In this document: positions 30,273 through 32,301 of the stretch, one piece after another
How positions within the stretch are numbered: the stretch's first letter is position 1
Layout: each line of letters starts with the position of its first letter
NCBI GenBank assembly: GCA_035533095.1
Contig: DATLUM010000136.1
Span: 1 to 47,792 of the forward strand
Length of the DNA: 47,792 nt
Source of the DNA: Acidimicrobiales bacterium
GTDB lineage: Bacteria > Actinomycetota > Acidimicrobiia > Acidimicrobiales > Palsa-688
Direction of reading: 5' to 3'
Program-made: the position numbers and the translations under genes
The notes under the pieces: generated by a model
Database searches by the model: none
Told to the model about the DNA's origin: nothing
Seen by the model: only the letters and a program-made list of their open reading frames with translations

Positions 30273-30707
30273 TCAGCCCTCGGGCGCCGTCGTGCCGGGC
30301 TCCGGCTCGGCCCCAGTCTTGGTGGCTGCGTGGATCTGCACGAACGCAATCCGCAGGTTGGCCAGCGCGTCCGCCAACTCCGGGGCGTGCTCTCCGAGCC
30401 GGTCCCCGAGCCCGTCGACGAGGGCGGCGAGGGCGTCTATGGCCAGGCGCGCCTGGTCGAGCTGGGGCGGCTGCAGGGACAAATGGAGAGCGCCCAGCTC
30501 GAACAGCCCGAAGGCGTGGTTCGCCACGACGACCTCGGCCGGGGTGCGGGCGAGCTGGTCCTGGAGCTGGGCGAGCCGTGCCTGCATCTCCTCCTGCGTC
30601 GGTTCGCCGGATGGCTCTTGCGTGCCGGGAGCGGGCCGTCCGCCGGCATCTTCCTGCGGCCCACGGGATACCGGTCTTTCCCCGCCGGGCGTCCAAAGCG
30701 TGCTCAT
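30273..30707 (-). CDS. DUF1844 family protein
   Basis: A 144-residue protein of unknown function. An N-terminal ~35 residues are Pro/Gly/Glu-rich and probably disordered; a short coiled stretch follows (QEEMQARLAQLQDQLA), then the DUF1844 core: PAEVVVANHAFGLFELGALHLSLQPP, QARLAIDALAALVDGLGDRL and LADALANLRIAFVQIH. ATG 30707 lies 6 nt after a TAGGGT -10 on the minus strand, so it is probably leaderless. It stands divergent to infC, a position seen repeatedly for this family in actinobacteria. Confidence 0.85.
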   Translation of the reverse strand: MSTLWTPGGERPVSRGPQEDAGGRPAPGTQEPSGEPTQEEMQARLAQLQDQLARTPAEVVVANHAFGLFELGALHLSLQPPQLDQARLAIDALAALVDGLGDRLGEHAPELADALANLRIAFVQIHAATKTGAEPEPGTTAPEG

Positions 30708-30712
30708 TCCGC

Positions 30713-30719
30713 TACCCTA
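30713..30719. promoter_or_regulatory. Overlapping back-to-back -10 elements for infC (+) and DUF1844 (-)
   Basis: TACCCT (30713-30718, plus) and TAGGGT (30719-30714, minus) share five base pairs. The minus element sits 6 nt before the DUF1844 ATG. The plus element would start a ~185-nt infC leader near 30725. RNA polymerase cannot occupy both, so the two transcripts should exclude each other. Confidence 0.45.
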
Positions 30720-30801
30720 TGTTGAAAACCGAATACGGGAAGCGGGGTCTCGGCCCCCACCCGGCCACCGACCCGAGGTAATTGCCACAGCGGCAGGCCA
30801 C

Positions 30802-30866
30802 GGCGAGCGTGCGTCCGGGTCGAATGACCGCTTGGGCGGGCGTTGCTTCCTGACGCTCGCCCTTTT
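30802..30866 (+). terminator. infC leader attenuator: terminator and competing antiterminator
   Basis: Terminator: 30834-30843 pairs with 30853-30862 (10 bp, one G-T wobble, 9-nt loop), followed by TTTT. Antiterminator: GGCGAGCGT at 30802-30810 is the perfect 9-nt reverse complement of ACGCTCGCC at 30853-30861, the same 3' arm. The two stems cannot coexist. This is the classic layout of transcription attenuation ahead of infC-rpmI-rplT, where L20 or another product could be the ligand (inference). Confidence 0.65.
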
Positions 30867-30892
30867 CGCGCCAGAGAATGGGTTCCAGCACC

Positions 30893-30898
30893 AAGGAG
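30893..30898 (+). promoter_or_regulatory. Ribosome-binding site deciding the ATA start of infC
   Basis: AAGGAG lies 9 nt before ATA 30908. An in-frame TGA at 30899-30901 closes the frame upstream, so this site can serve only a start between 30902 and the conserved IF3 N-terminus. Confidence 0.65.
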
Positions 30899-30907
30899 TG
30901 ATGCCGC

Positions 30908-31561
30908 ATAGCCGCTGCACCTGACCAGAACGACCACCGAACCAACGACAGGATCCGGGCCCGCGAGGTCCTGCTCATCGATCCGGACGGCAAGCAGCTT
31001 GGGATCAAGCCGCTGCCCGAGGCATTGAGCATCGCCCGCCAGCTCGATCTCGACCTTGTGGAGGTGGCCGCCGAGGCAAACCCGCCGGTCTGCAGGGTCA
31101 TGGACTACAACCGCTTCAAGTACGAAGCGGCCCAGAGGGCCAAGGAGTCCCGGCGTAAGGCGACGACCACGGGGATCAAGGAGATGAAGTACCGCCCGAA
31201 GATCGGCAGCGGCGACTTCGACACCAAGACCCGCCAGGTCGCCCGCTTCCTCGGGGAGGGCCACAAGGTCAAGATCACCATCATGTTCCGGGGCCGCGAG
31301 ATGAGCCATCCCGAGCTCGGCAAGCGGATCCTCGACCACGTCGCCGAAACAGTCGGCGCCGTGGCGAAGGTGGAAGCAGCCCCGAAGCTCGATGGTCGGA
31401 ACATGATCATGGTGCTTGCCCCAGACCGCAGGGCGCAGCAAGTGAAGAAGGGCGATCCCAACGGGACCCCGCCGCAGGACGAGGGTGCAGCAGGCGCCGT
31501 GGCCACCGCCGAGGAAGCCGGGGCGGCTTCCACCGCACCAGCCACCGCGGAACCCTCCTAG
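30908..31561 (+). CDS. infC: Translation initiation factor IF-3, probable ATA start
   Basis: IF-3 keeps 30S subunits free and rejects wrong start codons. The N-terminal domain begins TNDRIRAREVLLIDPDGKQLGIKPLPEALSIA, followed by VEVAAEANPPVCRVMDY and the C-terminal KEMKYRPKIGSGDFDTKTRQVARFL and FRGREMSHPELG. An in-frame stop at 30899 and the absence of ATG, GTG or TTG before 31025 force a rare start. ATA 30908, 9 nt after AAGGAG, fits. IF-3 genes in many bacteria use AUU, AUC or AUA for autoregulation. The 217-residue protein has an Ala/Glu-rich tail of ~35 residues. Confidence 0.9.
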   Translation: MAAAPDQNDHRTNDRIRAREVLLIDPDGKQLGIKPLPEALSIARQLDLDLVEVAAEANPPVCRVMDYNRFKYEAAQRAKESRRKATTTGIKEMKYRPKIGSGDFDTKTRQVARFLGEGHKVKITIMFRGREMSHPELGKRILDHVAETVGAVAKVEAAPKLDGRNMIMVLAPDRRAQQVKKGDPNGTPPQDEGAAGAVATAEEAGAASTAPATAEPS

Positions 31562-31609: not shown

Positions 31610-31804
31610 ATGCCGAAGATGAAAACCGACAGAGGCGCGGCGAAGCGCTTCAAGATCACGGGTAGCGGCAAGCTGCGCCGGCGCCAGGCGTTCCGTTCTC
31701 ACATCCTGGAGAAGAAGTCGTCCACGCGCACCCGCCGGCTCGCCCGCGAGGTCGACGTCGCTCCTGGCGACGTCAAGGCAGTGAAGCGCCTCCTCGGCAT
31801 CTGA
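31610..31804 (+). CDS. rpmI: 50S ribosomal protein L35
   Basis: A 64-residue, very basic ribosomal protein. It begins [22 protein letters not shown] and continues [15 protein letters not shown] with an RTRRLAR block, the normal L35 pattern and length. AGGAG (31600-31604) is 5 nt before ATG. It is part of infC-rpmI-rplT. Confidence 0.97.
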
Positions 31805-31896: not shown

Positions 31897-32301
31897 ATGG
31901 CCCGGGTCAAGCGTGCCGTCCACAGCAAGAAGCACCGCCGCGCCGTGCTGGAGCAGGCGCAGGGCTATTACGGCAACAAGAGCCGTAGCTACCGCGCCGC
32001 GCACGAGCAGGTCATGCACTCCTTGCAGTACGCGTTCCGTGACCGCCGCGCCCGCAAGGGTGACTTCCGGCAGCTCTGGATCCAGCGAATCAACGCCGCG
32101 GCTCGCCTGCACGGTCTCAGCTACAGCCGGCTAATCGCCGGCTTGCGAGTCGCAGGTGTCGAGGTCGATCGCAAGATCCTGGCCGATCTCGCCGTTCGCG
32201 ACGACGCGGCCTTCGGCTCCCTGGTGGGCACGGCCAAAGAAGCGCTGGAAGGGGCGGCCGCCGCCGTTGCCGACGGTGGCGCCGGTTCCGCCACCGCCTG
32301 A
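31897..32301 (+). CDS. rplT: 50S ribosomal protein L20
   Basis: Assembly protein of the 50S subunit and, in other bacteria, the translational repressor of this operon. The 134-residue protein begins [30 protein letters not shown], with the RNA-binding core [26 protein letters not shown] and [25 protein letters not shown] 15-20-residue Ala/Gly-rich tail extends beyond the usual length. GAGAGGAG (31882-31889) is 7 nt before ATG. The 92-nt gap before it contains a GGTCGGG/CCGACC hairpin (31854-31869) without a T-run. Confidence 0.97.

Follow-up and report, generated by a model that had tools for sequence, protein, structure and literature searches.

A conserved structured leader RNA upstream of infC in Acidimicrobiia, a probable regulatory switch of infC-rpmI-rplT

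Among the described counterparts of the RNA reported here is the L20 leader of Bacillus subtilis (RF00558), in which, according to two accounts (PMC6097659, PMC10931766), binding of L20 stabilizes a terminator. In Escherichia coli, the L20 operator of rpmI-rplT consists of pseudoknot and hairpin sites on the mRNA and controls the translation of rpmI-rplT, with infC left to IF3 (PMC10931766). The infC gene itself starts with ATT in E. coli, whereas that of Streptomyces has ATC (PMC5472188), and an actinobacterial S15 leader is described in PMC4137082 as an r-protein leader with a kissing-loop pseudoknot. Like the B. subtilis leader, the RNA that we describe lies upstream of infC in infC-rpmI-rplT and sets a predicted rho-independent terminator against an alternative fold, but its conserved core differs, the terminator loop here serves as the partner strand, and the window and five relatives have no RF00558 covariance match. 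It shares its gene cluster with the E. coli operator, whereas the RNA here stands upstream of infC and carries a terminator. As in the cases of IF3 autocontrol through a non-AUG start, infC here begins with none of AUG, GUG or UUG; the codon differs from those cases in being AUA and in overlapping the stop of a mini-ORF in many relatives. The S15 leader is also actinobacterial with a loop-based pseudoknot, and differs in belonging to the rpsO operon.

The window, by which we mean the whole stretch of 47,792 nucleotides that was analyzed, comes from an Acidimicrobiales bacterium. Pfam identifies IF3, L35 and L20 in that order, which places the leader at the head of infC-rpmI-rplT (Table 1), as the first-pass annotation had proposed, and the stretch before infC is a conserved structured leader RNA that appears to switch these three ribosome-related genes on and off. 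The family of the window comprises 32 genomes, in 29 of which IF3 was found and in 27 of which the infC start is readable. The divergent DUF1844-like neighbor lies upstream of infC in 26 of these 27 loci, and the 27th (L041) ends at a contig edge with 168 bases of sequence upstream of infC. From the candidate −10 box, transcription would start near 30725; the TACCCTA in which the box lies anchors our alignment of 15 family leaders. An ATG at 30719 opens a frame to a TAA at 30781 (MLKTEYGKRGLGPHPATDPR), yet L033 has ATGTTCTAA at that site, and on this comparison of the window with one other family leader we rejected leader-peptide attenuation in the window's lineage. At the contig end (47390-47792), Rfam matches the 5′ portion of a gene for 16S rRNA.

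Table 1. Coordinates of the features of the infC leader and its neighborhood in the window
Feature	Position	Strand	Basis or remark
Divergent DUF1844-like gene, upstream bound of the leader	30273..30707	-	PF08899 below cut-off, 22 versus 27 bits
TACCCT, candidate -10 box for infC	30713..30718	+	TACCCTA in 15 family leaders; putative function
P1 5′ strand, CGGGAAGC	30736..30743	+	Pairs with 30845-30852; family covariation, class partner scores
P2 hairpin (GGGG/CCCC)	30744..30757	+	30744-30748 with 30753-30757; compensatory changes in family and class
P3	30759..30820	+	ACCCGGCCAC (30759-30768) with GTGCGTCCGGGT (30809-30820), variable tip between; compensatory changes in 106 and 72 leaders
Antiterminator arm of the first-pass annotation	30802..30810	+	In the variable tip of P3; not conserved
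P4	30825..30842	+	30825-30826 with 30841-30842 and 30828-30831 with 30836-30839; captures the terminator 5′ arm
Terminator hairpin T	30834..30862	+	Arms 30834-30843 and 30853-30862; shuffles, conservation
P1 3′ strand, GCTTCCTG, the terminator loop	30845..30852	+	Family covariation, class partner scores, loop pairing, folding
TTTT tail of the terminator, short	30863..30866	+	Sequence
infC Shine-Dalgarno sequence, AAGGAG	30893..30898	+	AAGGAG or variant (AGGGAG, AGGAG) before ATA in 27 family loci
infC (IF3)	30908..31561	+	Pfam IF3_N, IF3_C; start codon ATA 30908-30910
rpmI (L35)	31610..31804	+	Pfam PF01632
rplT (L20)	31897..32301	+	Pfam PF00453

The terminator hairpin is formed by GGGCGGGCGT (30834-30843), which pairs with ACGCTCGCCC (30853-30862) over 10 bp, one of them G-T. 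A stem of at least 10 pairs followed by TTTT arose in none of 2000 dinucleotide shuffles of 30725-30907, so that this pairing, given with its TTTT in the first-pass annotation, exceeds chance. The hairpin is kept in relatives, with 97.0% of cells paired over nine pairs in 15 family leaders and all nine pairs intact in 12 of the 15; two of these pairs are broken in the family alignment (A1) in L035 and L036. A generic terminator scan that requires at least five T does not list the hairpin, whose tail has four, and the 183-nt leader folded alone is no more stable than its shuffles (z −0.23). The hairpin would nevertheless act as a real terminator in our reading. The antiterminator named in the first-pass annotation is likewise present in the letters, GGCGAGCGT (30802-30810) being a perfect 9-nt complement of ACGCTCGCC (30853-30861), and both pairings are thus confirmed as observations; when 30725-30833 is shuffled 2000 times, a complement of at least 9 nt to the terminator 3′ arm turns up in 0.65% of the shuffles. 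This second pairing is not conserved, however: in the 14 other leaders with terminators of their own, the complement to the 3′ arm spans 4-6 nt and does not exceed that of their shuffles. Compensatory changes, the check proposed for the named stem, are absent from it in the relatives and are found in P1, P2 and P3 instead.

Comparison of 15 family leaders reveals a structure of four helices, P1 to P4, in which 95.4% of cells are paired and P1, P2 and P3 covary. Changes on both sides of a pair occur in 15 cells and at six pairs, compared with 3.0 and 1.9 in shuffles, and none of 500 shuffles reaches either value; when the partners are slid by one to three columns, pairing falls from 95.4% to at most 50.7%. 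In P1, 95.8% of cells are paired and three of the eight pairs have changed on both sides, as where GGAAGC/GCTTCC is replaced by GAGAAGC/GCTTCTC in L039. P2 contains the GGGG at 30744-30747 paired with CCCC, the hairpin that had been suggested as a sensing element, and its compensatory changes in the family and the class make it part of the conserved core. P4 is paired in 95.6% of cells with zero changes on both sides; it is present in the family of the window and, judged by eye, in a few families close to it (L018, L065 and L119). A partition function computed from the window sequence alone gives P2 a probability of about 0.36 and P3 one of 0.1-0.23, so the core rests on comparison.

The conserved leader is found in 15 of the 27 family loci. 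In the other 12 it was not found by R1, a covariance model built from the 15 family leaders, at E up to 1, and R2, a covariance model of the core, run on these 12 with filters off, gave at best E 0.05, for L053:517-560, which lies some 900 bases ahead of infC. In the genome search, R2 matched G193, the genome of L049, at E 0.0049, a match that was not recovered within L049. L049-L054, L056-L058, L044 and L046 have a different and often longer leader without the conserved RNA, with a gap of 214-531 nt to the DUF1844-like gene and with the Shine-Dalgarno sequence and ATA kept.

Across the class Acidimicrobiia, we read 175 regions upstream of infC, namely the 27 of the family, 30 loci and 118 further regions, the latter two sets being the better IF3 matches among the 377 genomes with a match and not a random draw. 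The core motif, which includes the AAGY of P1, scores 28 or more in 124 of the 175 (shuffles: 99th percentile 27, maximum 29), and the 106 leaders with a score of at least 29 were compared further. In these 106, several pairs of P2 and P3 show covariation, some other pairs being nearly invariant and hence uninformative: Y29-R92 is paired in 103 of the 106 against a shuffle mean of 86.5, and C35-G83 in 102 against 79.1. In 72 aligned class leaders (alignment A3), 58 cells of P2 and P3 have changed on both sides, compared with 14.9 in shuffles (0 of 500), and the pairing counts from A3 are lowered because leaders that lack the Y bulge are out of register by one position in P3.

For P1, the class test was alignment-free and sought the best downstream partner of the 5′ strand of each leader. 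The mean partner score over the 106 leaders is 12.65 for the leader's own strand, 9.2 for swapped strands and 5.3 for shuffled downstream DNA; the own strand lies above the swap mean in only 79 of the 106, and the search found no P1 partner in 15. The helix takes forms as different as GGAAGC/GCTTCC, GCGAAGT/ACTTCGC, GCAAGC/GCTTGC, GGAAAGC/GCTTTCC and TGAAAGC/GCTTTCA. Terminator-like hairpins, sought independently of P1, are present in 47 of the 106 leaders, and in 25 of the 47 the loop region pairs over at least 6 nt with the leader's own P1 strand, compared with 3.1% of shuffled loops and with 29% of loops matched by swapped strands, a value that reflects the sharing of strands by families. 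The remaining 22 hairpins have no loop match of 6 nt, and in 59 of the 106 leaders the scan found no terminator-like hairpin. Transcription attenuation therefore need not be a class-wide rule, and the output may differ between families.

In genome searches at E 0.1, R1 matches 68 of 395 class genomes and R2 matches 196 of 390, mostly once per genome. All 76 of the R2 matches with paired IF3 coordinates, among about 150 matches listed, lie 73-249 nt upstream of IF3 and on its strand. Outside the class R2 is weak, with a best E of 7.9e-4 in 396 genomes of the phylum. Of 20 such matches fetched, 17 have no IF3 in the fetched DNA and are probably chance (one, L226, is cut by a contig end to 285 bases), and three, from one family (G492, G561 and G703), precede infC and share an AAGCGGG..CCCACC part. 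In this one family outside the class, the infC leader (L227, L234 and L235) carries a reduced form of the core and a hairpin that runs into a long stretch of T.

Against Rfam 15, the leader of the window has no match at the gathering threshold, the sole match in the window being the 16S rRNA, and the four matches of 30650-30960 (E 0.051-4.7) are all below gathering. RF00558 itself matches nowhere in the window at the gathering score; it also fails to match 30650-30960 at E up to 10 and any of six genomes (that of the window and five relatives) at E up to 1. The three infC loci outside the class gave only six Rfam 15 matches, all below gathering (E 1.5-4.5) and outside the leader core. In the literature searched, insofar as its text was available, we found no description of an infC leader in Acidimicrobiia. 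The suggestion of a distinct leader, made from the window for actinobacteria, is thus borne out for Acidimicrobiia, with no Rfam 15 match to the leader and with RF00558 found in none of the six genomes.

Judged from the comparison and from folding models, the conserved antiterminator looks to be P1 (30736-30743 with 30845-30852), joined in the window's lineage by P4. With P2 and P3 enforced, the state containing P1 and P4 folds in silico at −59.2 kcal/mol and the state containing the terminator at −61.5 kcal/mol. The finely balanced switch of the first-pass annotation therefore stands insofar as the two folds are only about 2 kcal/mol apart, but with P1 and P4 as the antiterminator and not 30802-30810. 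In simulated transcripts ending at 30852-30856, P1 has a probability of 0.92-1.0; once the terminator 3′ arm is complete, at 30862, the terminator reaches 0.82-0.84, and at 30866 it stands at 0.96-0.97 with P1 at 0.02-0.03.

These observations suggest the following sequence of events. The P2/P3 core would fold as RNA polymerase leaves the promoter, and CGGGAAGC, just 5′ of P2, would pair with GCUUCCUG as P1 ahead of the synthesis of the terminator 3′ arm. P1, aided by P4 in the window's lineage, would then hold the terminator loop and 5′ arm, leaving the operon antiterminated and on, until the emerging 3′ arm allowed the terminator hairpin to compete for those nucleotides and turn the operon off. 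An operon product binding the P1-P2-P3 core, for which P2 and P3 would be the natural site, could shift this balance and thereby provide feedback. By analogy, L20 would be the likeliest ligand, ahead of IF3 or L35, since genes of this cluster are under its control in both E. coli and B. subtilis (PMC10931766, PMC6097659). The R2 model matches a 23S stretch of G002, in which 2101 of 3401 bases read N, no better than at E 2.1. We consider this explanation as a whole, a feedback switch between P1/P4 and the terminator with an operon product as ligand, to be probable, with some reserve as to whether termination really occurs, which way the switch works and what its ligand would be.

The partner strand of P1 being the terminator loop, the main rival to this switch is a pseudoknot in which P1 and the terminator hairpin coexist and the loop, by pairing with the strand 5′ of P2, locks the hairpin, or a protein site, into one compact fold, so that P1 would strengthen termination or form a binding site instead of preventing termination. 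Written jointly in this way, P1 and the terminator have 95.8% of cells paired across the 15 family leaders. In several families the 3′ strand of P1 falls within the terminator's loop region and not in an arm, and 25 of 47 loop regions pair over at least 6 nt with their own 5′ strand. The geometry is less accommodating, however, in that several families have hairpins that could close to a 4-nt loop, where the inner pairs of the stem have to open for a P1 of 7-8 pairs to form, and in the window's lineage P4 overlaps the terminator 5′ arm, which fits exclusion better than coexistence. We regard the pseudoknot as a possible but rather doubtful account, and retain mutual exclusion of P1/P4 and the terminator as the preferred one.

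The start codon of infC bears on a different reading. In all 27 family loci read, a Shine-Dalgarno sequence is followed by ATA (AUA), an assignment made from the DNA, and the stretch from the preceding in-frame stop to the IF3 domain holds no ATG, GTG or TTG; we therefore take the ATA at 30908 as the start of infC and reject the start at 31025 given by the ORF lister, which lies inside the gene. Across the 175 class loci, Shine-Dalgarno sequence and frame assign ATA in 101, ATC in 51, CTG in eight, ATT in three and GTG in two, with 10 unassigned; both GTG assignments are doubtful, since these loci also offer ATA, and all 10 unassigned loci have an ATA candidate. In 56 of the 175, a mini-ORF with its own Shine-Dalgarno sequence has a stop codon that overlaps the infC start as AUAG, as in TTGCACAGGAGTGATCAGCCATAG and ATGAGGAGTGACCGGCCATAG. 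The mini-ORFs mostly have 6-8 sense codons (LHRSDQP* and MRSDRP*, for example; loci include L015, L002, L150 and L124), and in the family of the window one occurs in L037 only. The frame count, with all 56 in one frame, cannot serve as a fair control because an ATA followed by G partly forces the frame, and the varied start codons of the mini-ORFs, each with a Shine-Dalgarno sequence of its own, are the better argument. The overlap of UAG with AUA suggests that termination-reinitiation may couple the mini-ORF to infC. In one family (L015, L017, L158 and L174), the mini-ORF Shine-Dalgarno sequence lies inside a small hairpin of the ATGGG..CCCAT type and the scan found no terminator-like hairpin, hinting at a translational output.

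The mini-ORFs in these 56 class loci, and the presence of the core in the 59 leaders without a scanned terminator-like hairpin, are consistent with an RNA that acts mainly on infC translation or mRNA stability, to which the terminator would be a lineage-specific addition. In the window's lineage, however, 12 of 15 leaders retain all nine terminator pairs and L037 alone among the family loci has the mini-ORF, and we think this reading unlikely. Tentatively, and with a modest chance of being right, the two outputs may belong together in a new RNA family, ancestral in Acidimicrobiia, in which a strand beside a protein-binding core reads the terminator loop, by a loop-linear pseudoknot or by exclusion, and which couples transcription feedback by L20 with translation feedback by IF3 through the AUA start, in many members by termination-reinitiation from the conserved ORF ending in AUAG.

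Metabolite switches usually serve several genes. The compact, highly conserved core and its pairing switch would also suit a small-molecule riboswitch in place of an autogenous protein leader, but all 76 checked matches precede one operon, that of infC, and no Rfam riboswitch matches, which makes a riboswitch very improbable. To 30802-30810 as the antiterminator against 30853-30861 we give hardly any credence: its perfect 9-nt complementarity, equaled in so few shuffles, and its enforced fold of −60.7 kcal/mol, compared with −64.5 when that stretch folds freely, are outweighed by its absence from the 14 other leaders, by the place of the arm in the variable tip of P3 and by its weaker fold once P2 is also enforced (−57.4 compared with −59.2 kcal/mol for the P1 state).

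Our finding is a new structured leader RNA of a familiar kind, and the analysis supports the general reading of it as a distinct, attenuator-like leader of infC in Acidimicrobiia. It adds to the known structured RNAs one without an Rfam 15 match, with clear compensatory changes and with a searchable model. Its design is unusual in that the partner strand lies in the terminator's own loop, so that a pseudoknot and mutual exclusion can be told apart by direct test, and the AUA start with its overlapping mini-ORF offers a natural test of the control of reinitiation by IF3. The autogenous leaders described for the infC operon are located differently, and work differently, in E. coli and B. subtilis; if Acidimicrobiia have a third solution that spans the class, feedback would have been invented repeatedly at one operon.
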